Shown here: positions 1-22,827 of the stretch, in pieces
How positions within the stretch are numbered: position 1 is the stretch's first letter
Layout of the letters: every line of letters starts with the position of its first letter
Virus record (IMG/VR): IMGVR_UViG_3300020160_001161
Span: 1-23,154 of that record
Source of the DNA: a virus
Length of the DNA stretch: 23,154 bases
Direction: 5' to 3' (one strand)
Made by a program: the position numbers and the translations under genes
Notes under the pieces: model-generated
What the model was told of the DNA's origin: nothing
Database searches by the model: none
The model's input: the letters and a program-made list of their open reading frames with translations, nothing else

Positions 1-3000
1 CTTATATCAGGATCAGTAACTGTATCAGCTGCTACCCGTATGTCAGGTCTTAAAATGACTAATTTAATAGTTAGTTCATCTGCTCCTGTTTATATAAATG
101 ATTGCGCTGTAGATAAACAAATGACAGTATCAGGTAGTGGTTATTTAGAAGTACAAAATACATCTCTACAATGCACATCGGGCATCCAAGTAGTAGGCCC
201 GGCATCGTCTGGAGTAATTTTTGAAAATTGCTTCCTATATCCTTTAACAGTTAATAATGCGTCTGCTGCTGTATACGTAATTAGTTGCAATCAAGCTATA
301 ACACCAACTTTAACTGCTGGAGCTTTAACAATAACTCGATCTACTATTAGCTCTCTAACATCCGGAGCTACCTCTACAGCCCTAACAACAGCCGCTGGAA
401 GTGTATTAGTTTTAGAAAGTTGTAACGTGTATAATAGTTTATTAACATCTCACGCAGCTATAACAGCAAATGGATTCTATTCAATAAAAAACGTTATATA
501 CAACAAACCAGCATCAACACTTGCTTCTTTATCTGGTACTGGAGGCCCACTAGCAACAATATCTCAGTTTCAATACATCAATGCTGATAACATTACTACA
601 AGTGGACTAACAGTAACAGGTTCCTTAAACATAACTGGATCAACAACACAAATAGGTAATATAAATTTAACTGGTTCATTAAATGTAACAGCTGGTATAA
701 CCGGATCTTTATTTGGAACTGCTAGTTGGGCTAATAATGCTACAAGTGCTTCTTATGCACTTAATGCTACATCAGCATCTTATGCATTAAATGCTGACTT
801 ATTAGATGGTAAAGATAGTTCTACATTTGCTACTACTGGTTCAAATATCTTTATAGGTAACCAAACAGTAACTGGTAGTTTATTTACTACTGGCTCAAAC
901 ACATTAGTAGGTTCAACTACATTAACAGGTAGTTTAAATGTAAGTGGTTCTACTACTCAAGTAGGTAATAATACATTATTAGGTACTACTACATTATCAG
1001 GTAGTGTAATTATATCAGGATCAGCTAATGCTAGTGCTAATTTTACTTTACAAGGACATTTAAGATTAGACCCAGGGCAAGATCCAGGTAACGCTAATGT
1101 TACAGCATCATATCTATTTACTTCTGGTTCTAATACACAAACTGGATTTGATTTATATTATCGTCAAAATAATAGTTTAGTTAAGTTTAAGTGGCTAGAG
1201 GGTATGTTAAATACCGGAGTATTGTATGGTGGTGTGTTATCATATTCTGGAAGTTTCTTCTACCTCACCTCAGGTTCAGGTATTATTGTAAATCACAATG
1301 CTGTAACATCATCTGAGATTAATCCTATTATTACATATGTTACCTGGAATGCTACTACTCAAAGTATTGCAAATACAGGATCTCAAAACACATATGTTTA
1401 TATTGATGCTACTGGTAGTTTACAACAACAAACATCTTTCTTTACTGCTGAACAATATCATGAGCTTATTCCTATAGGTAGGGTATCACATTATGGAGCT
1501 AATAGCTCTACTATTACTGGTGTAGGTAATAATATGGTTACCTCTTATGATCAATCTTCACAATTAGGTGAGTTTGTTAGAGCTTTTGGACCTTTAAAAG
1601 TAAGTGGTCTTACTATTACCCCTCAACCAGGTTCTTTAAGTATTAATATTGGATCAGGTACATCATATAATTTAGGAGGATTTTATCAATACTCTCCTGA
1701 TTTACCAAGTATCTATAATTCATCTACATACTTAACCTCAAGTATTATCCGAATATATCGCTCAGGTTCAGGATATGATTTTGATAATAATGGAGGATCT
1801 TATTATACAGCAGTTGACCCAACCCAATGGGATAATGGATCTGGAACTTTACAAACTGTTGGAAATAGTAACTGGTCAATTCAACGTGTATTTGTAAACC
1901 CAGTTTCAGGTAGATCTCACATTTATTATGGTCAAACAATATATGCTACTTATCTTGATGCTATAGGAGCTATATCAACAGATGATTTTGAAGAAAGTGA
2001 TGTAACTAAAAACGCTTACGTGTTTGCTGGTTACTTAGTAATGGAAGGTGGAGCGGGTAATACTAACTTAGCAGTAAGTGGATCAACAAACGCTATCATT
2101 CAATCAGGCCTATTTAGAAACTCAGTAGGAGGTTCTGGTGGTGCTAGTGCTGCAGCTATTAATTTAAATGATTTAGCTGATGTTAATATTACTACTCCAT
2201 CAAATGGTCAAGCATTAATTTATAGTAGTGGACTTTGGATTAATGGAACCCCGTTAAATGCTACTAGTGCTTCATTTGCAACTACAGCATCTTATGTATT
2301 AAATGCAGTATCAAGTTCGTTTGCATCAACTGCCTCATTTGTACAAAATGCCCAATCAGCATCTTATGTATTAAATGCAGTAAGTGCTTCATTTGCTACA
2401 ACATCATCACATGCAATTAGCTCTTCTTACGCAATAAGCGCATCATATGCAATGAGTGCTTCATACGCTGAAAGTTCTTCATATGCTATTAGTGCATCAT
2501 ATGCTATTAGTGCATCATATGCTATTAGTGCATCATACGCTGAAAGTTCTTCATATACTATTAGTTCTTCATATGCTATTAGTGCATCATACGCTGAAAG
2601 TTCTTCTTTCCTTAAGGGACAAGAAATATATGTAAATGACATTTACCCTACTACTGGAAATTCAGCAAACCGTATTTTTACAGAAAATGTAAATTTAGGA
2701 TTTGGAGGAATAGGAGACACAGTAATATACACTAGCATTAGCGACATTAATCTTTATGCTGGTGCTGGTACTAAAGCAGTTAAAGTAACGGGCTCATTAG
2801 GAGTAACAAATGGTATTACAGGATCATTATTCGGAACAGCATCATACTCTATTTCTTCATCACTTGCTACCTCAGCATCATATGCTGATAACGCAACAAC
2901 AGCTTCATATGCACTAACATCTTCATATTCAAACAATATAGTAGGTGCTACAAATTATATTCCTAAATTTACTGGGGATAATACTTTAAGTAGCAGCATG

Positions 3001-4002
3001 ATGTATGAAAATGCTAGTGGTATTGGTATTAATGATATTTCTCCAACACACAAATTACAAGTAAGTGGGGATGTATCTGTAGCCAACACTAACAGTACTT
3101 TAAATACAACTAAATATTCTTTATTATCTGGACTTAATCTCACAACCACCGGTACAGAATCAAACCAATATGCTAATGTTGGTGTGTATGGAGTATTAGG
3201 CTACTCAGCAACTACTGGAACGTTTACACCATCAGATAAATCGTTTACAAGTGCAGTCTTTGGTCAATTTGGTAAAAGTGGAAATGGAAGTATTTCTGGT
3301 AAGGTATCTTCATATGCTGCTGGAATTAACCTTTCAGGTGCTGGTAACGTAACAACAATAGCTGGATTTAGAGCTTATGCTCCACTTCAATCATATGCTT
3401 TACCATCATTTAGTGGTACTGTAACAAATTATATTGGTCTATTAATAGATGATATTACTGGAACTACAGATGTAAGTTCTCAAATCACTAACAAATATGG
3501 TATTTTCCAATCAGGATCTCTTGATAAAAACTACTTTGCAGGTGCAACAACATTCGCAGGTGGTGTTACCGGATCTTTACTTGGAACTGCAACAACAGCT
3601 TCGTATGTTTTAAATGCTGTTTCTGCTTCAAACGCTGCAACGGCATCTTATTCACAAAATTTAGTAGTAGGAAGTACATTAACTATTGATCAAACATTAA
3701 CTGATTATGCTACAGTAGCATCATCAATTGCTGGATCAAATAATGTATTTACTCAAGATACAGGCTCTTATACATCAGCATTCTTTAAATACACCGTATC
3801 AAATGGTGGTAACACAAGAGCTGGTGAAGTAATAGCAGCTTGGAATGGTACTACAACAGAATTTACAGATTTCTCAACAGTAGATATAGGTAATACTACA
3901 GCAGTAACTGCTTCAATATCAATAATATCAGGACAAGTACAATTCAACGTTCAAACTAATAGTTCAGGATGGAGAATTAAATCATTAGCAACATTCATGT
4001 AA
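1..4002 (+). CDS. Large tail-fibre/adhesin protein, 5'-partial
   Basis: The frame is open from base 1, so the gene starts upstream. An ATG at 40 exists but is probably internal. The visible 1333 codons show, in order: a region to about base 600 with short alternating beta-type repeats that looks like a right-handed beta-helix; TGSL/SGS repeats with an ADLLDGKDSSTFAT-type motif (to about 1040); a globular region (about 1050-2140); a LNDLADVNITTPSNGQ motif common in phage fibres (2161-2262); Ser-Ala-Ser-Tyr-Ala repeats (2263-2604); and a C-terminal part with a NYIPKFTGDNTLSSSMM-type motif that I associate with Bacteroidetes tail-fibre proteins. The composition is rich in Ser, Thr, Ala and Gly with few charges, as in virion fibres. 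Similar GITGSLFGTAS stretches recur three times, suggesting internal duplication. No S74 chaperone or enzyme motif is visible at the C-terminus. The role as a host-adhesion fibre is inferred from composition, motifs and neighbours. Confidence 0.85.
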   Translation, partial: LISGSVTVSAATRMSGLKMTNLIVSSSAPVYINDCAVDKQMTVSGSGYLEVQNTSLQCTSGIQVVGPASSGVIFENCFLYPLTVNNASAAVYVISCNQAITPTLTAGALTITRSTISSLTSGATSTALTTAAGSVLVLESCNVYNSLLTSHAAITANGFYSIKNVIYNKPASTLASLSGTGGPLATISQFQYINADNITTSGLTVTGSLNITGSTTQIGNINLTGSLNVTAGITGSLFGTASWANNATSASYALNATSASYALNADLLDGKDSSTFATTGSNIFIGNQTVTGSLFTTGSNTLVGSTTLTGSLNVSGSTTQVGNNTLLGTTTLSGSVIISGSANASANFTLQGHLRLDPGQDPGNANVTASYLFTSGSNTQTGFDLYYRQNNSLVKFKWLEGMLNTGVLYGGVLSYSGSFFYLTSGSGIIVNHNAVTSSEINPIITYVTWNATTQSIANTGSQNTYVYIDATGSLQQQTSFFTAEQYHELIPIGRVSHYGANSSTITGVGNNMVTSYDQSSQLGEFVRAFGPLKVSGLTITPQPGSLSINIGSGTSYNLGGFYQYSPDLPSIYNSSTYLTSSIIRIYRSGSGYDFDNNGGSYYTAVDPTQWDNGSGTLQTVGNSNWSIQRVFVNPVSGRSHIYYGQTIYATYLDAIGAISTDDFEESDVTKNAYVFAGYLVMEGGAGNTNLAVSGSTNAIIQSGLFRNSVGGSGGASAAAINLNDLADVNITTPSNGQALIYSSGLWINGTPLNATSASFATTASYVLNAVSSSFASTASFVQNAQSASYVLNAVSASFATTSSHAISSSYAISASYAMSASYAESSSYAISASYAISASYAISASYAESSSYTISSSYAISASYAESSSFLKGQEIYVNDIYPTTGNSANRIFTENVNLGFGGIGDTVIYTSISDINLYAGAGTKAVKVTGSLGVTNGITGSLFGTASYSISSSLATSASYADNATTASYALTSSYSNNIVGATNYIPKFTGDNTLSSSMMYENASGIGINDISPTHKLQVSGDVSVANTNSTLNTTKYSLLSGLNLTTTGTESNQYANVGVYGVLGYSATTGTFTPSDKSFTSAVFGQFGKSGNGSISGKVSSYAAGINLSGAGNVTTIAGFRAYAPLQSYALPSFSGTVTNYIGLLIDDITGTTDVSSQITNKYGIFQSGSLDKNYFAGATTFAGGVTGSLLGTATTASYVLNAVSASNAATASYSQNLVVGSTLTIDQTLTDYATVASSIAGSNNVFTQDTGSYTSAFFKYTVSNGGNTRAGEVIAAWNGTTTEFTDFSTVDIGNTTAVTASISIISGQVQFNVQTNSSGWRIKSLATFM
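2407..2604 (+). repeat. 18-bp tandem repeat, 11 copies, encoding SYAxS(A/S) hexapeptides
   Basis: Eleven consecutive in-frame 18-bp units encode Ser-(Tyr/His)-(Ala/Thr)-x-Ser-(Ala/Ser), with x being Ile, Met or Glu. Several neighbouring units are almost identical at DNA level, for example around 2490-2540. Looser versions of the same hexamer extend upstream to about 2263. Copy-number change would keep the frame and only alter rod length. Confidence 0.9.
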
Positions 4003-4016
4003 TAAAAATAAAAATT

Positions 4017-4190
4017 ATGTATATAGTACAAATGCAATTCATTCCAGGAAACGATCAGATTTGGGTAGAAAAATTAAACCCAACAGATCCAGTCCATCAG
4101 TATAATAATGAAGCTGAAGCACAAGCTGAAGCAACTGAATTACAAAATGTTGATACAACAGGTAGAAAATATAGAGTAGTTAAATTATAA
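4017..4190 (+). CDS. Small hypothetical phage protein (57 aa)
   Basis: An ATG at 4017 opens a 57-codon frame ending in TAA at 4188-4190. It lies 14 nt after the large fibre gene and 12 nt before the first LamG gene, so it fills what would otherwise be a 200-nt gap. The leader is A-rich (aaaataaaaatt), like other starts in the window. The protein begins MYIVQMQFIPGND, has an acidic/Ala helix (NEAEAQAEATELQ, residues 31-43) and ends in TTGRKYRVVKL. From memory, this resembles short uncharacterised proteins in tail regions of other marine phages. The fit to the gene spacing and the balanced composition support a real gene. Its function is unknown. Confidence 0.7.
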   Translation: MYIVQMQFIPGNDQIWVEKLNPTDPVHQYNNEAEAQAEATELQNVDTTGRKYRVVKL

Positions 4191-4202: not shown

Positions 4203-4916
4203 ATGGGATTGAATTATGGACCTACTATAATAAGAAATGGTTTAATACTATCATTAGATGCTGCTGATATAAATTCATATCCAGGATCAGGTACCACGTG
4301 GTTTGATATTAGTGGAAGAGGAAATAACAGCTCATTAATCAATGGAATAACGTATAGTTCTGCTAATAGAGGAACTATGGTATTAGATGGAACAAATGAT
4401 TTAATATTTGCTCCCCCTACTAGTACAATAGGTGCTATTCCTAATCCTACTTGGGAAATTTGGGTTAAAAGTTCTGGACTAGGACCTGGTAAAAGCATTG
4501 GTGGATTAATATGCCCTGACTACGGTCAAATATCTTATATTAATGGAGATGGAAATATAACTTACTATCTATACAGTACAGATGCTGGATACCCAGGTAC
4601 ATACGTAATATCTATAGGTACATCAGGAGTAAATTGTTTTGATAACCAATGGCATCATGTTGTATGTACGAGAGGATATGGTATTGGAGCTTACATATAT
4701 GTTGATGGAGTTGTTAGAGCATCTAGTGGTGGAGGAGCTTCATGGTCCGGATTAACTATATGGAGCGGAATGAATACTCAAATAGGAAATAATCCAAATG
4801 ATGCTTATTATCATTTACTTGGAAATATAGCTGTAGCTAAAATATATAATAGATATTTTACAGCAGACGATGTTTTAAGAAATTATAACTTAACAAAAAC
4901 AAGATTCGGAAAATAA
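4203..4916 (+). CDS. LamG/concanavalin-fold adhesin, paralogue 1 (237 aa)
   Basis: This is a single LamG-like (Laminin_G_3 type) jelly-roll protein, probably binding glycans or proteins on the host surface as part of the adhesion apparatus. Recognisable parts are the N-terminal LSLDAADINSYPGSGTTWFD motif (residues 17-36), VLDGTNDLIF (60-69), the core QWHHVVCTRG strand with YIYVDGVV (149-171), and the C-terminal IYNRYFTADDVLRNYN plus KTRFG ending (214-236). The ATG follows the 57-aa gene by 12 nt. It has four close paralogues downstream and is most like the proteins at 8180 and 8904, which also lack a large insert. There is no signal peptide, as expected for a virion protein. Family membership is judged from motifs; the ligand is unknown. 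Confidence 0.85.
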   Translation: MGLNYGPTIIRNGLILSLDAADINSYPGSGTTWFDISGRGNNSSLINGITYSSANRGTMVLDGTNDLIFAPPTSTIGAIPNPTWEIWVKSSGLGPGKSIGGLICPDYGQISYINGDGNITYYLYSTDAGYPGTYVISIGTSGVNCFDNQWHHVVCTRGYGIGAYIYVDGVVRASSGGGASWSGLTIWSGMNTQIGNNPNDAYYHLLGNIAVAKIYNRYFTADDVLRNYNLTKTRFGK

Positions 4917-4917
4917 T

Positions 4918-6255
4918 ATGCCATCATCATCAGGACCACATATAACAACAGATGGATTAATATTATCATTAGATGCAGGTGATAGGAAAAATTCCTTTTT
5001 ACCTTTTTCCACATTTCTGAATATGACTACTTGGGGTTTAGGTTCAGGAGGTGCTACAGGATATGGTCAAAATGGTAATACAAATGAAAATGAAAGAGTT
5101 AATGGAACTGATCCTTGGGGTAATAGTGCTATTGTTTGGGAGTCTAGACCATCTGGGGATGGAAATGCTGATGGAGGATGGAATACAGATTGGTATAATA
5201 TAGATAATACAAAATTATATAGATTTTCAGTTTGGGTAAAAAGAACAAGTAGTTCAACAGGAGGAACATCTTATTTAGGATTATACGGAACTGGAGGAAC
5301 ATGGGGAGTTGAAAGATTAGATAATGGAGCTAATGAAGGTAATCCATATTGGGAATGTAACGGCACTGGAGCTTATACTCAAAACCAATGGTATTTACTT
5401 GTAGGACATTGTTACCCAGCAGGAACAACAGGTATTTCAGGAAATAAACATCCTGATACTGGACGTTATACTATAAATGGAAGAAATAGTGACTTAAACT
5501 ATTGTAATATTGGTGGAGATGTTAGGTGGTTATCAAACTCAACTCAAACTCTTCATAGAACATATCATTATTATTGTGGGGATAATACAACTCGTTTACA
5601 GTGGTTTGATCCAAGAATTGATTTATGTGATGGAACAGAACCTTCAATACAAGATTTATTAACGGCGGCTACAAATAGTTGGAGAAGTACAACTAAAGTA
5701 CCAAAAGTAGGAACTCTTATTAATGGAACATCATATACTAAAGACAATGTAGGTACTTTATCATTTGATGGTACTGATGATTATGTAAATATATCATCTA
5801 ATTCTGATTTTGCTTTAGGAACAGGAAATTTTACACTTGAGGTGATGATATATCCTCAATCTTTTTCAAGTTATACTCATATGGTAGCTTTACCATTACA
5901 AAATACTTTTGCTTTAAAAGCTAATGTGAGTGATGGAGTAATATATTACTATGATCCTTCATTCACAACATATGGATCAACATCAGGATGGACATTAACA
6001 TTAAACCAATGGAATCATGTTGTTTTAGTAAGACAAGCTAATATAGCATATGCTTATTTAAATGGTACATCTAAAGGTTCAGTAAGTGGATTTAATACAA
6101 ATATGGGAACTCAAGCTATGAATATTGGTTGGGGATGGGGAAGTGAATTTACTTCTAAAAAAATATCTACTGTTAGAATGTATAATAGAGCTTTATCATC
6201 AATAGAAATTCAAAATAATTATAATCAATTAAAATCACGTTTTAATTTACCATAA
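4918..6255 (+). CDS. LamG adhesin with inserted CBM-like module, paralogue 2 (445 aa)
   Basis: The ATG starts one nucleotide after the previous stop, suggesting translational coupling. The protein opens with the family motif GLILSLDAGDRKNSF (residues 13-27). About 220 residues follow (30-250) that the short paralogues lack. The LamG core then resumes with LSFDGTDDYVNI (281-292), QWNHVVLVRQ (364-373), and MYNRALSSIEIQNNYNQ plus KSRFNLP (421-445). The insert is rich in Gly, Trp, Tyr and Asn and contains LYRFSVWVKR (100-109), which resembles carbohydrate-binding beta-sandwich modules of the CBM4/9 kind. That assignment is tentative. The gene overlaps its small partner at 6255 by one base (TAATG). 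The two-gene unit is repeated at 6597-8166 with a different insert. Confidence 0.85.
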   Translation: MPSSSGPHITTDGLILSLDAGDRKNSFLPFSTFLNMTTWGLGSGGATGYGQNGNTNENERVNGTDPWGNSAIVWESRPSGDGNADGGWNTDWYNIDNTKLYRFSVWVKRTSSSTGGTSYLGLYGTGGTWGVERLDNGANEGNPYWECNGTGAYTQNQWYLLVGHCYPAGTTGISGNKHPDTGRYTINGRNSDLNYCNIGGDVRWLSNSTQTLHRTYHYYCGDNTTRLQWFDPRIDLCDGTEPSIQDLLTAATNSWRSTTKVPKVGTLINGTSYTKDNVGTLSFDGTDDYVNISSNSDFALGTGNFTLEVMIYPQSFSSYTHMVALPLQNTFALKANVSDGVIYYYDPSFTTYGSTSGWTLTLNQWNHVVLVRQANIAYAYLNGTSKGSVSGFNTNMGTQAMNIGWGWGSEFTSKKISTVRMYNRALSSIEIQNNYNQLKSRFNLP

Positions 6256-6587
6256 TGGAAGATATTTTAGACAATAAACGATGGTTAGTTATACCAACAA
6301 CATTAACTTCATCAATTAATTTTAGTGAGGTTGAGGAAACATCTATTAATACTTTACGTTTATCAATTAATGGTTCTGAAACTTTTGTAAAATATACTAT
6401 AAATGTAGTGACTGCTTCTTATACTCAATCTTATTGGGATCAAGAAACAGATAAATTAGTTAATTATATAGTTGAACCTGGAGTTTATGGAAGACCATCA
6501 ATATACTCTCCAATATATCCAGAATATGGATATTTAGAAATAACAGAACTTTTAGCAACATCATTATGGACAAAAATAGATAATTAA
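6255..6587 (+). CDS. Small partner protein of LamG adhesin, paralogue a (110 aa)
   Basis: This start overlaps the stop of the upstream LamG gene by one base. The protein belongs to a family of three in the window (also 7819 and 9640). Shared features are an N-terminal RWLVIPT block (residues 9-15), the central INFSEVEETSINTLRLSI and ETFVKY (about 21-47), YIVEPGVYGRP (70-80), and a C-terminal LLATSLW (98-104). Similar short proteins with FVKW and LATPEW motifs occur near tail genes of marine phages, as I recall, without known function. Each copy directly follows a LamG gene, which suggests an assembly chaperone, an adaptor or an accessory virion protein. This is inferred from position only. 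Confidence 0.8.
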   Translation: MEDILDNKRWLVIPTTLTSSINFSEVEETSINTLRLSINGSETFVKYTINVVTASYTQSYWDQETDKLVNYIVEPGVYGRPSIYSPIYPEYGYLEITELLATSLWTKIDN

Positions 6588-6596
6588 TTATTAATT

Positions 6597-7817
6597 ATGG
6601 GAGTATCACAAGGATATAGTAGTATTGTAACAAATGGACTTACATTTGCTTATGATGTAGCAGATACTAGAAATTCTTATTTAGGACGACCTACATCAAA
6701 TGTTTTAGCAAATTATGGAATGTCAACATATAATAACGTTCCAGGTAGTGTATCTTCAAATTTATATACTACAGGTGAAACATATAGAGGAGCCGCTGTT
6801 TATAGACAAGACTTAACAGCATTAGATGGGTCAGGTGCTTCTTGGCTAAGCGGATGTAACAATCCAGGCATAGGTGTTGTGACAGGTGGTGGTGGAGGAA
6901 CAGGAGGTGTTTATACAGGCCATTCTATATTTTTTAAAACAACTGTTCCAATGTGTGGTAGTCCAATTTACACACATTATTCAAATATTGCTGGTTGGCA
7001 AACATGCTGTAATTATGAAGATATGGGAGATGGTTGGTATAGAGCATATGTATTATGGTATGACACAGTAACAAGATCAGATGGAAAATACTGGGCTATA
7101 AATCCAGCTTCAACATCAGTAGGACAAACAGTAACAATATACTGGGCAGGACCATTTAGAGAGGATTTAAATAGTCAAACTATATCTCAATTTGTAAATG
7201 GGTCTAGAAGCACATCTCAAGCGGTAATAGATATAGCTGCTAGTCGCACTATGACTGTGAATAATAATCCGTTTACAACTCCAGCTATTAACCCTCAATT
7301 AACATTTGATGGTTCTGATGACTATTTAAATTTAGATGTAAATTCAATTCCAACTGGAAATCAAATAACAGTTGAATTTATAGCTGCTTGGAATGGAGGT
7401 CTTCAACCTAATTCTATAATAGCAGGGGGAGCTGGAGGAAATCAAGATTTAAGTTTACACTTGCCTTGGAGTGATGGAAATGTATATTGGGATGCTGGAA
7501 GACCATTTAATAGGATTTATAAAGCAGCTAGTTCATCAGAATATCTAGGAAACCACCATTGGGTATGTACTAAAAATGCCAATACAGGTGTGATGGAAAT
7601 TTATTTAGATGGAAATTTATGGCATTCTGGAGGTGGATTAACTTCAGCAATGCCTTCATTATCCTCAGCTAGTATTGGAAGATATGATAATGGCTCATTT
7701 CAAGGTTATTACTATAAAGGTAATATATATGTAGCTAAAGTATATAACAGAGCTTTATCAGCAGGTGAAGTGAAACAAAACTATAACCATTATAAAACAA
7801 GATATAATTTACCTTAA
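6597..7817 (+). CDS. LamG adhesin with inserted module, paralogue 3 (406 aa)
   Basis: The family start motif appears as GLTFAYDVADTRNSYLG (residues 14-30). About 200 residues then intervene, and the LamG core resumes at LTFDGSDDYLNLD (235-247). It continues through HHWVCTKN and MEIYLDGNLW and ends with YNRALSAGEVKQNYNHYKTR. The insert (31-230) contains a run of Gly residues (97-103), Cys pairs (C137, C138), and GDGWYRAYVLWYD (144-156), typical of a beta-sandwich carbohydrate-binding module. It does not obviously align with the insert of the 4918 gene. The gene follows a small partner by 9 nt and precedes another by 1 nt (TAATATG), so it forms the second copy of a LamG-plus-partner unit. A receptor-binding role is inferred. 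Confidence 0.85.
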   Translation: MGVSQGYSSIVTNGLTFAYDVADTRNSYLGRPTSNVLANYGMSTYNNVPGSVSSNLYTTGETYRGAAVYRQDLTALDGSGASWLSGCNNPGIGVVTGGGGGTGGVYTGHSIFFKTTVPMCGSPIYTHYSNIAGWQTCCNYEDMGDGWYRAYVLWYDTVTRSDGKYWAINPASTSVGQTVTIYWAGPFREDLNSQTISQFVNGSRSTSQAVIDIAASRTMTVNNNPFTTPAINPQLTFDGSDDYLNLDVNSIPTGNQITVEFIAAWNGGLQPNSIIAGGAGGNQDLSLHLPWSDGNVYWDAGRPFNRIYKAASSSEYLGNHHWVCTKNANTGVMEIYLDGNLWHSGGGLTSAMPSLSSASIGRYDNGSFQGYYYKGNIYVAKVYNRALSAGEVKQNYNHYKTRYNLP

Positions 7818-7818
7818 T

Positions 7819-8166
7819 ATGGATAATTTATACCCAAACAGGCGTTGGTTAGTAATACCAACCTCAGTCACTAACTCAATTGACTTTAGTCAAGTAGCAG
7901 AAATATCTTCAGCAACTTTACGTCTATCAATAGATCAAACAGAAACATTTGTAAAATATGATACCACAGAAATAACAGCTTCATATAGTGCCTCTTATAT
8001 AAATGCTACTACAGGACAAACAGTATATTATATAGTAGAAGCAGGAGTATATGGACGTCCAGACATATATTCTTCATCATATTCAGAATATGAATATCAA
8101 CCAATGCTTGATTTATTAGCTACACCTGCTTGGACATCAGGTAGTATGCCAACATTAGAAATATAA
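7819..8166 (+). CDS. Small partner protein of LamG adhesin, paralogue b (115 aa)
   Basis: This is clearly related to the 110-aa protein at 6255. It shares RRWLVIPTSVTNSIDFSQV (residues 8-26), TLRLSI and ETFVKYD (about 33-48), YYIVEAGVYGRPDIY (71-85) and LLATPAWT (98-105). The start lies one nucleotide beyond the stop of the LamG gene at 6597. As with the other copies, the C-terminal aliphatic-Ala-Thr-x-x-Trp motif is kept while the last residues diverge. No transmembrane segment or catalytic motif is seen. The function is unknown; an adaptor or assembly role for the neighbouring adhesin is the simplest reading of the repeated gene pairing. Confidence 0.8.
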   Translation: MDNLYPNRRWLVIPTSVTNSIDFSQVAEISSATLRLSIDQTETFVKYDTTEITASYSASYINATTGQTVYYIVEAGVYGRPDIYSSSYSEYEYQPMLDLLATPAWTSGSMPTLEI

Positions 8167-8179
8167 AAATTGTTTTAGT

Positions 8180-8890
8180 ATGGCTTTTAGTAATGGACCT
8201 ACAATAGTGAGAGATGGATTAGTATTAGCATTAGATGCTAGTGATAGAAATTCTTATCCTGGATCTGGTACTACATGGTTTGATATGAGTGGAAATGGGT
8301 ATAATGGTACTTTAACAAATGGACCAACATTTAATTCTTCTAATGGTGGAAGTATTGTATTTGATGGAGTAGATGATTATACTAGTTTAGGTAATTTAGG
8401 AACTATTGGAAATGCTTACAGTATTGAATGTGTATTTTATTCTACAGCTGTTCAAAGCTATAAGAACGTCTATGATATGAATTATAGTACCTATAATCCA
8501 AACACTGGAAATGTAGGTCCAAGAATGGAACAGTTTTCAGATAATACATTTAACTGGGTTTGGTCTGGGAATACTTCCAATAATGGAATATATAATTATA
8601 CAACACCATCAGCTTTACTTGCAAATAGATTTTATCACACAGTATTTACTCTTAATTCTGGAACAGTTAATACGTATAAAAACGGAGTAATTCAAGATAG
8701 TAATGTAGCTAGTCCAAATGGATATATTACTACTTTTGGAGATGTAAATATAGGAAGAGGATTTATATTAGATCCAAGTAGATATTTTGCAGGAACAGTG
8801 CCTGTATTCAAAATATATAACCGAGCTTTATCAGCTGCTGAACTTACACAAAACTACAACGCAACAAAATCTCGCTTTGGACTAAAATAA
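8180..8890 (+). CDS. LamG/concanavalin-fold adhesin, paralogue 4 (236 aa)
   Basis: This short, insert-free family member has GLVLALDASDRNSYPGSGTT (residues 13-32), SIVFDGVDDYTSLG (58-71), a middle strand region (FYHTVFTLN and TYKNGVI), and the C-terminal IYNRALSAAELTQNYNATKS followed by RFGLK. It closely matches the proteins at 4203 and 8904 at both ends, while the middle is more variable, as expected where the ligand-binding loops differ. It lies 13 nt after the partner gene at 7819. Unlike paralogues 2, 3 and 5 it has no small partner gene behind it; another LamG gene follows directly. The role in host binding is inferred. Confidence 0.85.
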   Translation: MAFSNGPTIVRDGLVLALDASDRNSYPGSGTTWFDMSGNGYNGTLTNGPTFNSSNGGSIVFDGVDDYTSLGNLGTIGNAYSIECVFYSTAVQSYKNVYDMNYSTYNPNTGNVGPRMEQFSDNTFNWVWSGNTSNNGIYNYTTPSALLANRFYHTVFTLNSGTVNTYKNGVIQDSNVASPNGYITTFGDVNIGRGFILDPSRYFAGTVPVFKIYNRALSAAELTQNYNATKSRFGLK

Positions 8891-8903
8891 TATTTATACC
8901 AGT
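8888..8903 (+). promoter_or_regulatory. Candidate phage late-promoter motif (TAATATTTATACC)
   Basis: The 9-mer AATATTTAT/ATATTTATA at 8889-8898 recurs upstream of several genes in the window. Here it overlaps the stop codon of the 8180 gene and ends only 5 nt before the ATG at 8904. A transcript from it would have a very short leader or none, so chance is a real alternative. Confidence 0.3.
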
Positions 8904-9629
8904 ATGGCAACACAATTCGCAAATGGTAAAATAGTAACTGATGGATTAGTATTAGCTCTAAATGCAGCTGATAAAAATTCATATCCTGGATCAGGTACAA
9001 CATGGACTGATCTTAATCCATTTTACACTAACAGTACTTTAACTAATGGACCTACATTTAGTCCAAACAATTCAGGATTAGTAGTTTTAGATGGTACTAA
9101 TGACTGGATATCAATACCAGGAAGTACAACATTATACACTTCAAACTTTACCTGGCAATCTTTTCACTATATTAGATCAGCTAATGGTAGTGATTTAGAT
9201 GGAATGTGGTGGTCTGAAGCTGGTTCTAAAAACTTTTTAACAGGATATAGAAATACAAATTTAGTCAATCCATATTTTAGAATTGACACTCCATCATCTG
9301 TTTATCAATCCCCATCAGTTGGAACTCAATATAATGGATTAGGTACTAACGCTGGATCAGTGACAGGAAGATGGTTATTAACTACTATAGTTAAAAATGG
9401 TACTACATTTTCTCTATATTGGAATAATGCTATTATAATGTGGCAAGTGACTATATCAGATTGGAGCATACCAGCTACATCTCAAGCTATAGCTTTTGGA
9501 GCTAGAAATGATTCATCTTTTGCTACAGCGATGAATATATCTAGTATTCTAATGTATAATAAAGCTTTATCAACACCTGAAATAATTCAAAATTATGAAG
9601 CTCAAAAAACACGCTTTAATTTAATATAA
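8904..9629 (+). CDS. LamG/concanavalin-fold adhesin, paralogue 5 (241 aa)
   Basis: The last of the five LamG proteins. Family motifs are GLVLALNAADKNSYPGSGTT (residues 14-33), LVVLDGTNDWISI (59-71), a WLLTTIVKNGTTFSLYWNN strand pair in the second half, and the C-terminal MYNKALSTPEIIQNYEAQKT followed by RFNLI. The first acidic position of the LDA(A/G/S)D motif is Asn here (LNAAD). The middle is Trp- and Ser-rich and differs from the other copies. The gene is followed after 10 nt by the third small partner (9640), restoring the LamG-plus-partner pattern. Binding specificity cannot be read from sequence. Confidence 0.85.
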   Translation: MATQFANGKIVTDGLVLALNAADKNSYPGSGTTWTDLNPFYTNSTLTNGPTFSPNNSGLVVLDGTNDWISIPGSTTLYTSNFTWQSFHYIRSANGSDLDGMWWSEAGSKNFLTGYRNTNLVNPYFRIDTPSSVYQSPSVGTQYNGLGTNAGSVTGRWLLTTIVKNGTTFSLYWNNAIIMWQVTISDWSIPATSQAIAFGARNDSSFATAMNISSILMYNKALSTPEIIQNYEAQKTRFNLI

Positions 9630-9639
9630 AAATAATAAC

Positions 9640-9924
9640 ATGCTAGTAGAACAATTACAAGACTATGAAAACAGAGAATTCATGATATTTAATGTATCTG
9701 AATTACCAGATATTGATTTTACACAAGTATTAGAAACATCAATTGATACTGTTCGTAAATCAGTAGATAAAACAAAAACATTTGTTAAATGGGATGGCAC
9801 TATTATTCCATCATCAATAACTGCCTTAACTACAAAAGAAGGACCTTATACATATGAGGAAATTCTTTCTATACTAGCTACACCAGAATGGTCAGATCCT
9901 GATGTGACTAATGTAATATCTTAA
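9640..9924 (+). CDS. Small partner protein, paralogue c (94 aa)
   Basis: The most divergent of the three partner proteins. It keeps IDFTQVLETSIDTVRKSVD (residues 25-43), the following TKTFVKWDG (45-53), KEGPYTYEEILSILATPEW (66-84) and a short acidic tail. It lacks the YIVExGVYGRP segment of the other two. Proteins with the KTFVKW...KEGPYT-EE...TPEW pattern are, to my knowledge, common uncharacterised members of tail clusters in marine T4-like phages, so this copy may be closest to the ancestral form. It follows the LamG gene at 8904 by 10 nt and is the last gene before a promoter-like motif and the collagen-like fibre. Confidence 0.8.
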   Translation: MLVEQLQDYENREFMIFNVSELPDIDFTQVLETSIDTVRKSVDKTKTFVKWDGTIIPSSITALTTKEGPYTYEEILSILATPEWSDPDVTNVIS

Positions 9925-9935: not shown

Positions 9936-9974
9936 AACCCTTGCCTTGGGGACAGTGAACTAAGGTAATTGAAT

Positions 9975-12900
9975 ATGGCTAATGAATTTGTTGCTCGCAA
10001 TGGCATCATTGCGCTTGATAACTCTCAAATAACTGGCTCATTAAGTATTGGCAGTAATGTTACTGCCTCTAATGCGCTTATAACAGGTACAATAACTGCC
10101 CAAACTCTTTTAGTACAGGATATCACCTCGTCTAGAGATTTTGTAACTGGATCTACCAGATTTGGAAGTGTACCTTCTAACACACATCAGTTTACTGGTT
10201 CAGTTTCTATAAGCGGCAGTTTAGCCGTCCCTACAATACCTCAAGGTACAACAGAAACTAATATTGTTGTGACTGATACTTCAGGCAACTTTAGATATAG
10301 ATCAAATTTAAGTTTAACAGGTGCCCAAGGTGCAACTGGCCCTCAAGGTGCTCAAGGCGCTGTAGGACCTCAAGGTATACAGGGTATCCAAGGTATACAG
10401 GGTATTGAAGGTGCTCAAGGAGCAACAGGTCCTCAAGGTGCTCAAGGAGCCCAAGGTGCGCAAGGTACCCAAGGCGCTGTTGGACCACAAGGTGCTCAAG
10501 GTATTCAAGGTATTCAAGGTGATCCTGGAGCTCAAGGTGCCCAAGGTGCAGTTGGACCACAAGGTATTCAGGGTATTCAGGGTATCCAAGGTGCTCAAGG
10601 AGCAACAGGTCCTCAAGGAGCCCAAGGCGCTCAAGGTGCGCAAGGTGCAACTGGACCACAAGGTGCACAGGGAGCTGTTGGACCTCAGGGTGCTCAAGGT
10701 GCTCAAGGAGCAACTGGCCCACAAGGTGCTCAAGGAGCTACAGGCCCACAAGGCGCTCAAGGCGCTACAGGACCTCAAGGTGCTCAAGGTGCCCAAGGTA
10801 TTCAAGGTGCCCAAGGTAGTCAAGGTATACAAGGTATACAAGGAGCCCAAGGCTCTCAAGGTATTCAAGGAGCACAAGGAGCTCAAGGTGCTGCAGGACC
10901 AAATGCTGGAATTTTATCATATACAAATCCTGGTGACAACAGAGTAATTACCTCTGTTGACTCAACAACTATAAACGGTGAAACTAACTTCACATTTGAT
11001 GGCTCTACTTTAAAAATAACAGGTTCATTAATACAATCAGGTTCATCATTAGCTGCTTCATTGCGTGGTAGTGGTTCAGCAGTATTTTCTGTTGATGGTA
11101 CAGTAGGTAGATTATTCCAAGTAGATGACAGCTTAACAGGCTCATTATTCAGTGTAAATACAGCTGGTGGATTGCCTGTGATTGAAGCATTCTCAGATAA
11201 TACAGTTAAGATAGGTAAATATGGAGCTGAAGCAATTGTAGTTTCTGGCTCAGGAGGACAATTACAGTTAAGTGGTTCAATAGCAATGCCTTCATTAGCA
11301 TCTACTAGTGACACTACTGTAGTGACATTTAATACAACAACAAAAACAATAGGATTTAATACTGTAGCTGGTCCAAAAGGAGCTAAGGGTGCTATAGGCC
11401 CTCAAGGTGCCCAAGGTGCTCAAGGCGCTACAGGTCCTCAAGGTGCTCAAGGAGCAACAGGTCCTCAAGGAGCTCAAGGTGCTGTTGGACCACAAGGTGC
11501 TCAAGGCGCCCAAGGTATTGGTGCTCAAGGAGCCCAAGGAGCAACAGGTCCTCAAGGTGCTCAAGGTGCTGTTGGGCCTCAAGGAGCCCAAGGCGCTCAA
11601 GGTATTCAAGGAGGACAAGGAGCTCAAGGTATACAAGGAGCCCAAGGCGCTCAAGGTATTCAAGGAGGACAAGGAGCTCAAGGTATACAAGGTGCCCAAG
11701 GAGCTACAGGCCCACAAGGGGCTCAAGGAGCCCAAGGAGGACAAGGTGCTCAAGGCGCACAAGGCGCAGTTGGACCTCAAGGTGCTCAAGGCGCTCAAGG
11801 TGCTCAAGGAGCCCAAGGTGCTACTGGCCCAAATGCTGGTATAACTTCTTATACAAACCCAGGTGATAATAGAGTATTAACTTCAGTTAACTCATCTACT
11901 ATCAATGCTGAGGCATTTATGACATTTGATGGTTCTAAATTAATAGTATCAGGTACAGCCGATGTAGCTAACTTTAGAGGATCAGGATCAGTATCAAACA
12001 CAACAATATTTTCAGTAGATGGAGCTAATGGTAGATTATTTGAAATAACAGATGATTTATCTAACTCAATATTCTCAGCTAACACAATAGCAGGTGTTCC
12101 TGTAATTGAAGCGTTTGCTGACAACACAGTTAAAATTGGTAAATTTGGATCAGAAGCTATTGTAGTTTCTGGTTCAGGAGGTCAATTACAACTGAGTGGT
12201 TCAATTAAGATGCCTTCACTATCGTCTACAGGTGACACAACAGTTGTAACTTTCAATACATCAACTAAAACAATAGGATATAATACAGTTGCTGGCCCTC
12301 AGGGAGCTCAGGGTGCTCAGGGTGCTCAGGGTGCTCAGGGTGTTCAAGGCGCTACAGGCCCACAAGGGGCTCAAGGAGGACAAGGCGCTCAAGGAGCCCA
12401 AGGAGGACAAGGTGCTCAAGGCGCACAAGGCGCTGTCGGCCCTCAAGGCGCTCAAGGTGCCCAAGGTGCTCAAGGTGCCCAAGGTGCAGTTGGACCTCAA
12501 GGCGCTCAAGGAGCCCAAGGAGGACAAGGAGCCCAAGGAGGACAAGGAGCCCAAGGTGCTCAAGGCGCAGTTGGACCTCAAGGTGCCCAAGGAGCACAAG
12601 GTGCCCAAGGTGCATCTGGAGCTACTATCTTAGGTAATACTAACACATGGACTGGTATTAACTACTTTAGAAGTAATCTTGGTGGATATTTAGGTAGTTT
12701 ATCTAACCCACCTTTACAAGCCTATTCAGATAGTAATAACTCAGCATTTATGTCATTCCATAAGGGAAGTCAATATGCTGTGAATATGGGATTAGATGCT
12801 GATAATGTGATGCGTATTGGTGGATGGTCTGCTAGTGCTAATAGATGGGAACTTGATATGTCAGGTAATAACTGGGTAGCTAGTTCATTTAGAGCTCCTA

Positions 12901-13835
12901 TTTTTTATGATTCAGCTAATACAGGATATTACACTGACCCAGCTGGTTTGTCAGTACTTAGTAGTCTTAAATTAATTGGTAATGTAAATAATAACCCACG
13001 TTGGGACTTCACAGCATATGTAGTTGAAGCACAACACTGGTATGGTAATAACTCATCTATGACAATGTATATGGGTGAGGGTAGTAATACAATTCAAATA
13101 CCAGGTAGTGGAGGTATTAGACCTACTATAATGTATGATTATAGTAATACAGGATATTATTGTGATCCAGCAAGTAGTTCTAATCTTAATACTTTATATG
13201 TAAACGATTGGTATTATTTAAATGGTGCTGGTGGTTTATATTGGAATTCATACGGATATGGTATAAGACCACCAACACCACAAGGAGCATCTTATGGTAA
13301 TGCTTGTACATATGGTAATGGACCTAATGGATATAATGGATGGATGGTTCTTGATCCAGGCAACTGGATTCAAGGATATATGTGGTCAAGTGGAGGAAAT
13401 GGTGGTAGTTATGGACAAACAAGAGGAGATTGGCACTGGTATTGGAGCCAAGGTAATGGATGTATGGGTATTGGTGCATCATCTACTTCTGCTTCTTATA
13501 GATTATATGTGAGTGGAGCTATTTATTCTACAGGTAATATATGCGCTTACTCAGATGTTCGCAAAAAAGAAAATATTAAAACTATAGATAACGCCTTAGA
13601 CAAAGTAAATAAAATGAGAGGTGTTTATTATAACAGAACAGATGATGAAACTAAGAGAAAACAAACAGGGGTTATCGCACAAGAAATAAATGAAATATTA
13701 CCTGAAGTAGTTACATACGCTGCTGATGTAGATGAATATAGTGTAGCATATGGTAATATAGTAGGTGTATTAATTGAAGCGATTAAAGAACAGCAACAAC
13801 AAATTGATGAATTAAAAGCTTTATTAAACAAATAA
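9975..13835 (+). CDS. Collagen-like tail fibre with C-terminal S74 chaperone domain (1286 aa)
   Basis: I chose the ATG at 9975; the in-frame TTG at 9969 adds only two residues. The N-terminus ([20 protein letters not shown]) is followed by TGSL-type repeats. Three Gly-X-Y blocks follow at residues 116-310, 466-620 and 774-884, separated by two homologous ~155-residue modules that begin NAGI(L/T)[10 protein letters not shown]. Residues ~885-1190 contain fibre motifs such as [17 protein letters not shown] and two copies of an NTGYY(T/C)DPA motif. The last 94 residues match the peptidase S74/endosialidase intramolecular chaperone: [32 protein letters not shown], then a coiled-coil end ([16 protein letters not shown]). 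By family knowledge this domain drives trimer folding and cleaves itself off before the Ser of the SD motif (Ser1193). The protein is predicted to be a trimeric, rod-like virion fibre. Confidence 0.92.
10320..10904 (+). repeat. Collagen-like block 1: 65 uninterrupted Gly-X-Y triplets
   Basis: Gly is at every third residue for 65 triplets. The main triplets are GAQ, GPQ, GIQ, GAT and GAV, with Gln dominating the Y position. Pro is almost always at X (GPQ), with one GDP. GGQ is absent, unlike blocks 2 and 3. Synonymous codons for Gly and Ala vary freely between units. Confidence 0.95.
11370..11834 (+). repeat. Collagen-like block 2 with one interruption
   Basis: About 51 triplets begin [10 protein letters not shown], the only place in the collagen blocks with Lys at Y positions. 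A Gly-Ile-Gly interruption at 11514-11522 shifts the triplet register by one residue. GIQ and GGQ triplets are both present. Ends GATGPN, like block 1 (GAAGPN). Confidence 0.95.
11580..11692 (+). repeat. Exact 54-bp tandem duplication inside collagen block 2
   Basis: Bases 11580-11638 are identical to 11634-11692, giving a period of 54 bp. This equals 18 codons or six Gly-X-Y triplets, so the frame and triplet register are kept. Identity extends to synonymous positions, while most other units in the block differ at these, which points to recent duplication. Confidence 0.9.
12294..12626 (+). repeat. Collagen-like block 3: 37 uninterrupted Gly-X-Y triplets
   Basis: Thirty-seven perfect triplets, mostly GAQ, GGQ, GPQ and GAV, with no GIQ. 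A 47-bp stretch (12387-12433) is identical to 11721-11767 in block 2, and 12351-12378 is identical to 11703-11730, so blocks 2 and 3 share recent ancestry or gene conversion. Confidence 0.95.
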
Positions 13836-13839
13836 TTAA

Positions 13840-14370
13840 ATGGCAACACCAAGTTCTGGACAAATATGTTGGTCTGATATTCAAGCTGCAACAGGAGGAA
13901 GTTATTGTATGGATAACTTTAATTCTGTGAGTGGTAGAGGATATTGTGCTGGTGATTATTATAATTATCCAACATCTACTCCTACTCCAACGCCTACCCC
14001 AACACCTACACCTACCCCAACACCTACACCTACACCAGCTGCAGTAGATGTATATATAGATTATTGGCTTCCTAGTTCTATGATTTGTTATGGATCCTAT
14101 ATCTTCTCAGCCAATGTCTCAGGCTTAACTCCAGCGGTTAATACTAATGTATTTGTAGATATATTTTGGTATGGAGACTTAGGTGGATATGCTTTTGGAC
14201 AAGTAACTATATACCAAAACTCCACTTGTAATACTACTAATGTATATCCTGGAGGACTTATAGACTGTATGGGAGAAAACTATAGTTATTCCTTCGTTAG
14301 TATATCTCCAGGAACTAGTGGAAACCAAACATTTATTGAAGGCAGTCAACTAACAAGCGCTAATTGTTAA
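13840..14370 (+). CDS. Small Cys-containing protein with (Thr-Pro)10 linker (176 aa)
   Basis: The ATG lies 5 nt after the fibre stop. A short N-terminal domain (residues ~1-45) has Cys at C10, C23 and C36 and a YYNYP end. Ten Thr-Pro repeats follow (13978-14037, residues 47-66), then a ~110-residue beta-rich domain with Cys near VNTNVFVDIFWYG and several SxT/NxT-like surface stretches, ending in Cys. The TP stretch should form a stiff extended spacer and resembles linkers that are O-glycosylated in other bacterial and eukaryotic proteins. There is no signal peptide, so the Cys residues would meet oxidising conditions only after virion release. Likely a minor virion or adhesion protein; the function is not recognised. 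Confidence 0.8.
   Translation: MATPSSGQICWSDIQAATGGSYCMDNFNSVSGRGYCAGDYYNYPTSTPTPTPTPTPTPTPTPTPTPAAVDVYIDYWLPSSMICYGSYIFSANVSGLTPAVNTNVFVDIFWYGDLGGYAFGQVTIYQNSTCNTTNVYPGGLIDCMGENYSYSFVSISPGTSGNQTFIEGSQLTSANC
13978..14037 (+). repeat. (Thr-Pro)10-encoding hexanucleotide repeat
   Basis: Twenty alternating ACN CCN codons. Third positions vary (act cct act cca acg cct acc cca ...), so the array is not a pure DNA microsatellite. Slippage in steps of 6 bp would keep the frame. Confidence 0.95.
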
Positions 14371-14680: not shown

Positions 14681-15139
14681 GTGAAAAAAGTTATATTAAA
14701 GTTACATGAAATTTATGCACTACATGGTGAATTAAATGGTTTTATAAATAATCAAACTGGTGAGATTATTTCAAAAGGTATATTAGGTGAAAAACTAAAA
14801 TTAAGTACTAAATACTGGATGACAGAATTAGCTAAAACTATTGATGAAGAAAGAGAAAAAATTGATAAAGTAAAAGAAGAATTAATAAAAAAATATGGTG
14901 AAACTGATACAAATGGAGGTATTTTTCTCTCACGTTTTATCAACACTGTAAAAAATGAAGAAGGAAAAATCATATCAGGTGATATTAATCCTAAAGTTAT
15001 AGAATTTGAAAAAGAATTTGATAAATTTCTTCAAGATGAAAAAACCATTGAGTATAAAGAATTTAAACTATCTGATTTTGATGGTATTGAAACTGAGGGT
15101 ATTTACACTACTTTTTTCAAACTTGTAAAACCTGAATAA
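14681..15139 (+). CDS. Hypothetical charged helical protein, GTG start (152 aa)
   Basis: The best start is GTG at 14681, giving MKKVILKLHEIYALHGELNG. An in-frame TAA at 14669-14671 rules out a nearby upstream ATG, and the next in-frame ATG would remove 46 residues that look coding. The protein is rich in Lys and Glu, with a probable helix or coiled coil at about residues 47-70 (MTELAKTIDEEREKIDKVKE) and an ELIKKYGE segment at 67-74. The helix-loop layout, with a closing IEYKEFKLSDFDGIE, recalls small uncharacterised proteins of phage tail regions, but I cannot name the family. It stands between two AT-rich gaps (14617-14680 and 15140-15174) and may be separately transcribed. Confidence 0.75.
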   Translation: MKKVILKLHEIYALHGELNGFINNQTGEIISKGILGEKLKLSTKYWMTELAKTIDEEREKIDKVKEELIKKYGETDTNGGIFLSRFINTVKNEEGKIISGDINPKVIEFEKEFDKFLQDEKTIEYKEFKLSDFDGIETEGIYTTFFKLVKPE

Positions 15140-16456: not shown

Positions 16457-16475
16457 TTGATACTTAAAAATTGTT

Positions 16476-20670: not shown

Positions 20671-22827
20671 ATGGCGCAAGAAACATTAATTTCTCCAGGT
20701 GTTCTAACACGCGAGAATGACTTATCTCAAATAACACAGAATCCAGTTACTGTTGGTTTAGCCTTAGTAGGTCCAACTGTTACTGGCCCCGTTAACGTAC
20801 CAACTGTAGTTACTTCTTATAGTGACTTCAAAAACAAATTTGGTGGCTTGTTCACTAGTGGTGGTGCTAATTATGAGTTCCTAACATCAATAACTGCTAG
20901 AAACTATTTCCAACAAGGTGGTACTACAGCTTTAATTACAAGAGTAACTGATGGAACTTATACTTCAGCTACATCTAGTATTATTCCAAACAGTATAAGT
21001 GGTGGAACTAGCGCTTATGCTACTATGAGCATGGTGTTAACTAATGATATGTTTAATGATTGGAACAAAGGTGTTATATTCACTTTAGGTGGATTTGATG
21101 ATGTTAGAATAGGTGCTTCAAGCTGGCAAGGATATGATGATTTTAGTAGCACATATTTTATAAACACTTATAATGGTGGAGCATGGGGTGCTGATGCTTT
21201 TGGAGCTGGTGCTGTATCAATAATCAACAATACAACAACTATTAGTTCTAAATTAAGTGCTAGCTATGATTCATCAACTAATTTATTAGTTGTATCAGCT
21301 TCAAGTCCAGGTAATTCTCTTAATGGTACTGCTGTTTATGGTGGACAATATCTTTATTACAATGTTGCTTCATTCCCTTCATCTTCAGCATTTGGAGGTG
21401 GTGGTACTGCTTTAAGTACTATCCCAACATTTGTTTTAGAAACTCTATCTACTGGTATTTTAATGAACAACTCAGGATCTGGAGCTAATGCTGTTTTATC
21501 TGATGGTGCTCTACTTAGTGGTTCTAATATGAATGTAAGATGGGAAATCCAAAATGCTAACACTTCAAGTGGTACATTCACATTATTAGTTCGTCAAGGT
21601 GATGATAATGATAATAGTAAGACTGTTTTAGAAACATTTAGTAACTTATCATTAGATCCAAATCAACCAAACTACTTAGAGGCGGTTATAGGTAACCAAA
21701 GAAAATTAGCTATTAAAGATGCTGATGGTCAATACTATATTCAAACTATAGGTGATTATGCTAATAATAGTCGCTATGTTCGTGTGAGCCAAGTTAACTA
21801 TACAACTCCAAATTATTTTGATAATGCTGGAAATGCTAAAAACGAATACACACAATCAATTCCATTAAATGGTAGTGGTTCTAAGGGTGGAGCTTTTGGT
21901 GGCGCTTTAGGAGATGATTTAGCTACTATTGGAAATACATTATTTAATAATATTGGTTCAACAACTCAAGGTTTACTTCAAGGTAGCTATGTTACAGCTT
22001 CTGCTTTATTAAATAATAAAGATGAATTTGATTTCGCCTTATTAGCAACTCCAGGTTTGATCCAATCATTACACTCTTCAGCTGTAGGTAATTTTATCAG
22101 TTTAGCTGAAAACAGAGGTGATTGTTTCTATATCACTGATTTATCACCATACAATGTTACACTTAAAACTGTGACTAATCAAGCGGCTGGTTTAGACACT
22201 AACTATGCTGGTGCTTATTGGCCTTGGGTTCAAGTAATATCTCAAGAAACTGGTAAACGTGTATGGGTTCCAGCTTCAACAATCATGCCGGGTGTATATG
22301 CTTTCAACGATAATGTAAGTGCTGAATGGTTCGCACCAGCAGGTTTAACAAGAGGTGGATTAGGTAATGTATTACAAGCTGAAAGAAAATTATCTCCAAC
22401 AGATCGTGATAATTTATATGCTGGTAAAGTTAATCCAATCTCTACTTTCCCTAATATTGGTGTAGCTGCATTTGGTCAGAAAACATTACAGAAAAAAGCT
22501 AGTGCTTTAGATCGTATCAATGTTCGTAGATTATTAATTGCGCTTAAGAGATACATTGGTAACGTAGCTGAAAACTTAGTATTTGAACAAAATACAGCTA
22601 CTACAAGAAATGCTTTTATAAACACAGTTACCCCATATCTTGAATCAGTACAACAAAGACAAGGTTTATACGCCTTCAGAGTTGTAATGGATGATACAAA
22701 CAATACTCCAGATGTAATTGATCGTAATCAATTAGTAGGACAAATTTACTTACAACCAACTCGTACAGCTGAATTTATCTTATTAGACTTCAACATCTTA
22801 CCAACTGGTGTAGAATTTGGAAGTTAA
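20671..22827 (+). CDS. Contractile tail sheath protein (gp18-like, 718 aa)
   Basis: The N-terminus (MAQETLISPGVLTRENDLSQ) and the next block (VGLALVGPTVTGPVNVPTVV) match the start of tail sheath proteins of T4-type myoviruses. The C-terminal conserved domain (about residues 570-718) includes KKASALDRINVRRLLIALKR, ENLVFEQNTATTRNAFINTV and the terminal TRTAEFILLDFNILPTGVEF pattern typical of the family. The middle (about 90-420) is a variable Gly/Ser-rich region likely exposed on the sheath surface. At 718 residues it is somewhat longer than T4 gp18 (659). The protein forms the contractile outer tube of the tail and identifies the phage as a myovirus. It starts a new transcription unit after a terminator and promoter-like motif; no Shine-Dalgarno precedes its ATG. 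Confidence 0.93.
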   Translation: MAQETLISPGVLTRENDLSQITQNPVTVGLALVGPTVTGPVNVPTVVTSYSDFKNKFGGLFTSGGANYEFLTSITARNYFQQGGTTALITRVTDGTYTSATSSIIPNSISGGTSAYATMSMVLTNDMFNDWNKGVIFTLGGFDDVRIGASSWQGYDDFSSTYFINTYNGGAWGADAFGAGAVSIINNTTTISSKLSASYDSSTNLLVVSASSPGNSLNGTAVYGGQYLYYNVASFPSSSAFGGGGTALSTIPTFVLETLSTGILMNNSGSGANAVLSDGALLSGSNMNVRWEIQNANTSSGTFTLLVRQGDDNDNSKTVLETFSNLSLDPNQPNYLEAVIGNQRKLAIKDADGQYYIQTIGDYANNSRYVRVSQVNYTTPNYFDNAGNAKNEYTQSIPLNGSGSKGGAFGGALGDDLATIGNTLFNNIGSTTQGLLQGSYVTASALLNNKDEFDFALLATPGLIQSLHSSAVGNFISLAENRGDCFYITDLSPYNVTLKTVTNQAAGLDTNYAGAYWPWVQVISQETGKRVWVPASTIMPGVYAFNDNVSAEWFAPAGLTRGGLGNVLQAERKLSPTDRDNLYAGKVNPISTFPNIGVAAFGQKTLQKKASALDRINVRRLLIALKRYIGNVAENLVFEQNTATTRNAFINTVTPYLESVQQRQGLYAFRVVMDDTNNTPDVIDRNQLVGQIYLQPTRTAEFILLDFNILPTGVEFGS

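Follow-up and report, generated by a model that had tools for sequence, protein, structure and literature searches.

A tandem LamG gene array with conserved ends and exchangeable cores in a putative T4-like myophage

In T-even phages, adhesin segments of gp37 and gp38 are swapped between conserved motifs, as summarized in PMC11414711 from the work of Tetart (1998). Ackermannviridae encode their receptor-binding proteins TSP1-4 together, and the conserved 5' ends of these genes are recombination sites; adding a gene in the laboratory leads to recombination or deletion (PMC11414711). In an Alteromonas phage, a tail fibre and its cognate chaperone form a module that is common to distant phages (PMC10579305). 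LamG3 domains occur on jumbo-phage tail fibres, where they are proposed to bind host carbohydrates (PMC7824862). Here we analyzed an array of five LamG genes and three small partner genes in the virus record IMGVR_UViG_3300020160_001161, whose 23,154 bases constitute the window. In our view the array probably serves a T4-like myophage as a host-recognition cassette, in which cores are exchanged by recombination in the conserved gene ends.

Composition of the array and exchange of its cores

The genes of the window are nearly gapless and all lie on the plus strand. A first-pass annotation, made from the letters alone, had read eight open reading frames (ORFs) as five LamG genes and three partners in the order LLPLPLLP (L, LamG; P, partner). 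All eight were recovered at the positions it gave, although its list left out an ORF at 4017-4190. Two related contigs, IMGVR_UViG_3300002835_000249 (G001) and IMGVR_UViG_3300042386_001406 (G006), are used throughout for comparison. The array contains the following genes.

4203..4916, + strand: LamG1, single-domain LamG_3, slot tag MGLNYGP (Pfam PF13385, 49.7 bits)
4918..6255, + strand: LamG2, N-terminal strand, inserted domain of ~200 aa and LamG_3 (PF13385, 66.4 bits at 284-432)
6255..6587, + strand: partner 2, 110 aa, one-base overlap with the LamG2 stop codon (ORF, partner-family comparison)
6597..7817, + strand: LamG3, N-terminal strand, inserted domain and LamG_3 (PF13385, 45.3 bits; structure model)
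7819..8166, + strand: partner 3, 115 aa (ORF, partner-family comparison, model)
8180..8890, + strand: LamG4, single-domain LamG_3 (PF13385, 67.8 bits)
8904..9629, + strand: LamG5, single-domain LamG, slot tag MATQFANGKIVTDG (PF13385, 25.3 bits; alignment with 8180)
9640..9924, + strand: partner 5, 94 aa (82% identity with the last-slot partner of G006)

The five LamG proteins are related. Four of them exceed the gathering score of Pfam Laminin_G_3 (PF13385, 27.6 bits), and the protein from 8904, just under it, aligns with that from 8180 across its whole length. In the numbering of 8180, their mean pairwise identity is 48% at positions 1-38, 22% at 66-205 and 48% at 206-236, which bears out the proposal of conserved ends and variable middles. 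Among 45 short LamG proteins from many phages, pair identity is 0.36-0.58 in the first 50 residues, 0.10-0.28 in most of the middle and 0.41-0.59 in the last 26. At the DNA level, 200-nt direct repeats are located at the gene starts (77% identity between 4202 and 8179) and 96-nt direct repeats at the gene ends (60-72%). The ends are conserved as described, but the terminal motifs are looser than first written: 6597 has YDVADTRNS, 8904 has LNAADKNS, and 4203 ends in YNRYFTADDVLRNYNLTKTRFGK. The N-terminal motif is typical of phage LamG proteins (PHROG 24074). The C-terminal motif (YNRxLS..E) lies inside the Laminin_G_3 model and is matched to its last position in the window proteins; it is partly the generic end of such domains.

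An AlphaFold model of the 6597 protein (mean predicted local distance difference test score, pLDDT, 76.7) matched domains with a concanavalin fold. Among solved structures, domain 4 of AbnA, which binds arabinan, matched best (Z 21.0, 190 residues, 2.6 Å); the alignment spans residues 13 to 398 of the model. The N-terminal motif therefore belongs to a single sandwich with the C-terminal part, and the extra domain of ~200 residues between motif and LamG body in 4918 and 6597 is an insertion. This inserted domain is possibly carbohydrate-binding in some LamG proteins: CBM_4_9 is matched in 4 of 48 relatives that have it, which is no more than a hint. The concanavalin-type fold is common to many binding domains and shows no ligand.

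Comparison of G001 and G006 revealed the same core in different positions, or slots, of the array. The first LamG of G001 and the fourth of G006 are 96% identical in the core at the amino acid level, 68% in the first 40 residues and 67% in the last 30, with the mismatches concentrated at both gene ends. The start of the G001 gene is closest to that of LamG1 in the window (79% over 174 nt), and it matches up to codon 7 the gene in the first slot of G006. That gene, located after the long fibre, encodes a fibrinogen-like protein (PF00147, 25.6 bits; L171 8001-8711, which is 48001-48711 of the G006 contig). The tag MGLNYGP is found in all three slot-1 genes. Because the two LamG genes share a core while the G001 start resembles slot-1 starts, the comparison indicates that the core moved between slots and the slot-specific start stayed.

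The opposite arrangement, similar ends around different cores, was also observed. Records L048 and L050 (97.4% identical in shared DNA) have a LamG with ~42 identical N-terminal residues, nearly identical C-termini and a diverged core, and the core of the last LamG differs between L038 and L039 (95.1%). In the last slot, the window and G006 have the tag MATQFANGKIVTDG in common; the start is 85% identical and the partner 82%, the core 27%. The same core with different ends, together with the same ends around a replaced core, points to recombination within the conserved ends.

The array is also variable in gene number. We surveyed 70 distinct records with array genes, among which are 53 uncut runs. 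These runs contain one to eight genes, with 1-6 LamG and 0-3 partner genes, so copy number differs between related genomes. The LLPLPLLP run of the window is the longest, and only four runs have five or six LamG genes. The arrays of G001 (LamG, LamG, LamG and partner) and G006 (FReD, small gene, LamG, LamG and partner, LamG, LamG, LamG and partner) differ, whereas the DNA that flanks them is 96.4% identical on the left (3.8 kb compared) and 97.5% identical on the right (15.5 kb). The G006 array recurs in a second metagenome (L007), so it is not the product of a single assembly. A stretch of 4.7 kb that begins within the last 25 codons of the final LamG is 99.6% identical between L053 and L070, and these two records have different numbers of LamG, though L053 is cut near its left end. 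In L050 and L057, the order of LamG and partner is reversed.

For 130 of the 140 LamG in multi-LamG records, the closest relative is located in another record, and for 10 it is a sibling in the same record. The gene at 6597, for example, has 81% identity with a G001 gene but only 30% with the closest of its siblings. Accordingly recent in situ duplication was rejected as the origin of the array, which looks to have been built mainly by exchange between phages. The earlier picture of a variable cassette, possibly with recombination between copies, is supported in that cores move between genes through recombination in the ends. Gene gain or loss, core replacement, core movement between slots and borders in the conserved ends are all evident when the relatives are compared.

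A different arrangement is observed in Synechococcus phage S-SKS1 (L166 3031-9626). LamG stretches are repeated in a 960-aa protein with five profile matches, followed by a partner gene. The protein looks as if a LamG array had been fused.

The partner family and the surrounding tail genes

The partners form a second family: compared with the first (6255), identity is 55% for the second partner and 33% for the third. At least 410 relatives were confirmed, and the family accompanies LamG adhesins in hundreds of viral contigs; in bacterial genomes it was found in two contigs of metagenome-assembled genomes only. Searches of Pfam and PHROGs gave no family, and the PDB contained no relative by sequence or by fold (E<0.001). 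None of these searches gave a reliable assignment to a known family, those of chaperones included. The partner model is a small alpha/beta protein (pLDDT 93.5), whose weak matches in the viral-structure library BFVD are to unnamed phage proteins only. Three residues, K46, L100 and W105 in the numbering of 7819, do not vary among 51 relatives.

A LamG gene is located directly upstream of 48 of 69 distinct partners, with a median gap of 3 nt. Among the others are partners with another fibre-type gene upstream and LamG downstream. Long partners follow long LamG in 22 of 26 cases versus 8 of 22, a difference confounded by lineage. Mean identity is 45% among partners versus ~27% among their LamG. 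The idea that partners are matched to the tag of their LamG and not to its core was rejected, as the correlations are equally weak (0.25, 0.24, 0.18). With low confidence, we propose that the partner is an assembly factor or adaptor for LamG adhesins. Further fibre-type genes also seem to have small companions: a 74-aa ORF follows the fibrinogen-like gene of G006, and a 57-aa ORF follows the long fibre of the window. The 74-aa gene has no family match, and the first slot of G006 has another adhesin fold with, perhaps, its own partner. The 57-aa ORF matches nothing in Pfam or PHROGs and may be a small companion of the long fibre.

Tail-fibre genes flank the array on both sides, and the gene for the tail sheath lies downstream of it. 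The features around it are the following.

40..4002, + strand: long protein resembling a tail fibre, with SASYA repeats, adjoining the array on the left (ORF; homologous fibre at the equivalent place in related contigs)
4017..4190, + strand: 57-aa ORF between long fibre and array (conserved at the equivalent place in the relative G006)
9969..13835, + strand: collagen-like tail fibre carrying an S74 chaperone at its C-terminus, adjoining the array on the right (Pfam Collagen, Peptidase_S74)
20671..22827, + strand: tail sheath protein (PHROG 23 tail sheath, E 9e-75)

The sheath gene shows that the array lies among the tail genes of a phage with a contractile tail. Over its length, the sheath shares 48% identity with its counterpart in Flavobacterium phage vB_FspM_immuto (immuto), a Baltic Sea isolate whose host is Flavobacterium LMO8. 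In immuto, a tail-fibre-like gene is followed by two LamG, then by a longer LamG that has one partner, and these by a tail fibre, lysozyme and sheath; this order matches that of the window. Based on this order and the sheath identity, the window phage is most likely a T4-like myophage of a host related to that of immuto. The immuto array thus has three LamG, gp049-gp051, and one partner, gp048; two of these LamG are annotated as structural proteins.

Downstream of the collagen/S74 fibre are small genes, two glycosyltransferase-family-2 genes, oxygenase-like genes and then the sheath. A protein of 176 aa (13840-14370) contains a (TP)n linker between a start, MATPSSGQICWSDI, and a C-terminal domain; similar starts are located directly upstream of partner genes in L053, L059, L064 and L070. 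A scan with the neighbouring gene at 14681 gave four loci only. A DUF6445 protein and the two family-2 glycosyltransferases (15548-19429) are 86-94% identical in G001 and G006, and the sheath is less conserved (78%). The guanine-cytosine content is 44-48% in the collagen-like repeats of the fibre (10000-13000) versus ~32% around them, and overlapping mechanical ORFs in this region are artefacts of the repeats. Promoters and terminators within the array showed no excess compared to shuffled sequence.

Alternative explanations and the proposed mechanism

Conserved ends and diverged centres could be the normal pattern of LamG_3 domains, with structural termini and fast loops, left by old duplication with no special exchange. 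The position of the C-terminal motif within the Laminin_G_3 model and the structurally central ends agree with this. However, point mutation alone cannot produce a nearly unchanged core with clearly different ends, as in G001 and G006, or identical ends with a replaced core, as in L048 and L050, and gene number and order differ between contigs whose flanks are 96-99.6% identical. This explanation is already contradicted for the relatives, and we regard it as improbable for the window. A dedicated diversifier, either a diversity-generating retroelement or a site-specific invertase, is more improbable still. LamG-like and C-type-lectin receptor proteins of other phages are targets of such systems. 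Reverse transcriptase (RVT_1) had no match in ten related records, five of them longer than 110 kb, the window itself being a fragment, which makes a retroelement unlikely; the cores differ by many substitutions and indels rather than adenine-directed point changes. An inversion cassette was rejected, as all copies in the window are on one strand and the inverted repeats there are short and imperfect.

The more serious alternative, which we nevertheless judge rather unlikely, is that the LamG proteins decorate the capsid, sheath or fibres and mediate general attachment to surfaces, polysaccharide or particles, rather than serving as primary receptor-binding proteins. PHROG 8510, which is related, carries the label head and packaging, virion structural. 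Cyanophage S-PM2 has proteins with the N-terminal motif whose annotation says no more than virion structural protein, and the single-domain proteins have no obvious trimerisation stalk. The position of the array among tail genes argues against decoration, as does core swapping as strong as in receptor-binding genes.

Several points weigh against the host-recognition cassette that we favour. The literature search found no virion proteomics of this phage or a close relative, immuto included, and the structural protein label in immuto may be annotation by similarity. Given the label of PHROG 8510, display on the capsid is possible. Glycan binding, presence on the virion and the role of the partner are all putative. 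Similarity of partners is weakly correlated with that of LamG (Spearman 0.18-0.25), and many LamG have no partner. Among 62 short LamG, N- and C-terminal similarity correlate (Spearman 0.40-0.49) and ends and core do not (-0.15 to 0.09). This favours exchange of cores between the ends, but the core is so diverged that the missing correlation may be partly noise from saturation, as its two halves correlate only weakly with each other (0.18). The evidence from the direct pairs is independent of this statistic.

In a host-recognition cassette, each LamG gene would encode a small binding protein of the concanavalin-A-like type, which is probably exposed on the tail. The first ~40 and last ~30 residues would meet in the folded domain as a shared base, and the core between them would vary and do the binding. 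Cores would be swapped and genes added or deleted by homologous recombination in the conserved ends, both between slots and between phages, presumably in mixed infection. The phage could in this way change its set of binding specificities with the flanking tail genes unchanged. The partner, translated right after some LamG genes, might assist as assembly factor or adaptor. A bolder version, which we advance only tentatively, is that the tandem LamG genes are addressed slots. The ends would be virion addresses, with MGLNYGP for the slot that follows the long fibre and MATQFANGKIVTDG for the one that precedes the collagen fibre. The cores would be plug-in modules, even fibrinogen-like ones, and the partner would be an adaptor or assembly factor that has not been described before and whose fold is absent from the PDB.

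The array provides a natural example of phages rebuilding putative receptor-binding sets, with exchangeable cores in several tandem slots between flanking tail genes that are 97% identical. Host-range change in uncultured relatives of Flavobacterium phages becomes testable in the isolate immuto. The array also points to an uncharacterised small protein family that accompanies LamG adhesins.

Comparison with known systems

Exchange of the T-even type, in which a variable segment is replaced between conserved ones and the flanks are kept, was found in the related contigs. The T-even phages, as far as the summary in PMC11414711 describes them, have one adhesin at the fibre tip, whereas several stand-alone LamG proteins of a different fold are encoded here in tandem. 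Compared to gp37 and gp38, the cores are bounded on both sides by conserved ends. Neither the LamG nor the partner proteins matched the gp38 adhesin family in Pfam or PHROGs, although remote homology is possible.

Like the Ackermannviridae, these phages have several putative receptor-binding genes together, with conserved 5' ends that recombine. The Ackermannviridae proteins, however, are large trimeric enzymes with separate N-terminal linking domains, whereas the LamG proteins have 235-445 aa and their conserved ends lie within the binding domain. No separate Gp10-like linking domain followed by a variable C-terminal domain was found; the N-terminal ~40 residues belong to the LamG sandwich, and conservation is also seen at the C-terminal end.

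The LamG3 and concanavalin-fold lectin domains of jumbo phages belong to the same domain family and have a proposed role in carbohydrate-directed adhesion (PMC7824862). In that survey the domains are located on fibres and other virion components, and tandem arrays with partners or core exchange were not found there. The Alteromonas module resembles the array in having a small gene directly 3' of the adhesin gene (PMC10579305), an arrangement that we observed for the 48 partners directly downstream of LamG. The partner, however, has no detectable sequence or fold match, and it shows no one-to-one pairing with LamG.

Adhesin segment swapping is already known from T-even phages, and multi-receptor phages with recombining 5' ends from the Ackermannviridae. 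What is new here is the tandem arrangement of stand-alone LamG genes with conserved segments on both sides within one binding domain, slot-specific ends and an undescribed partner.

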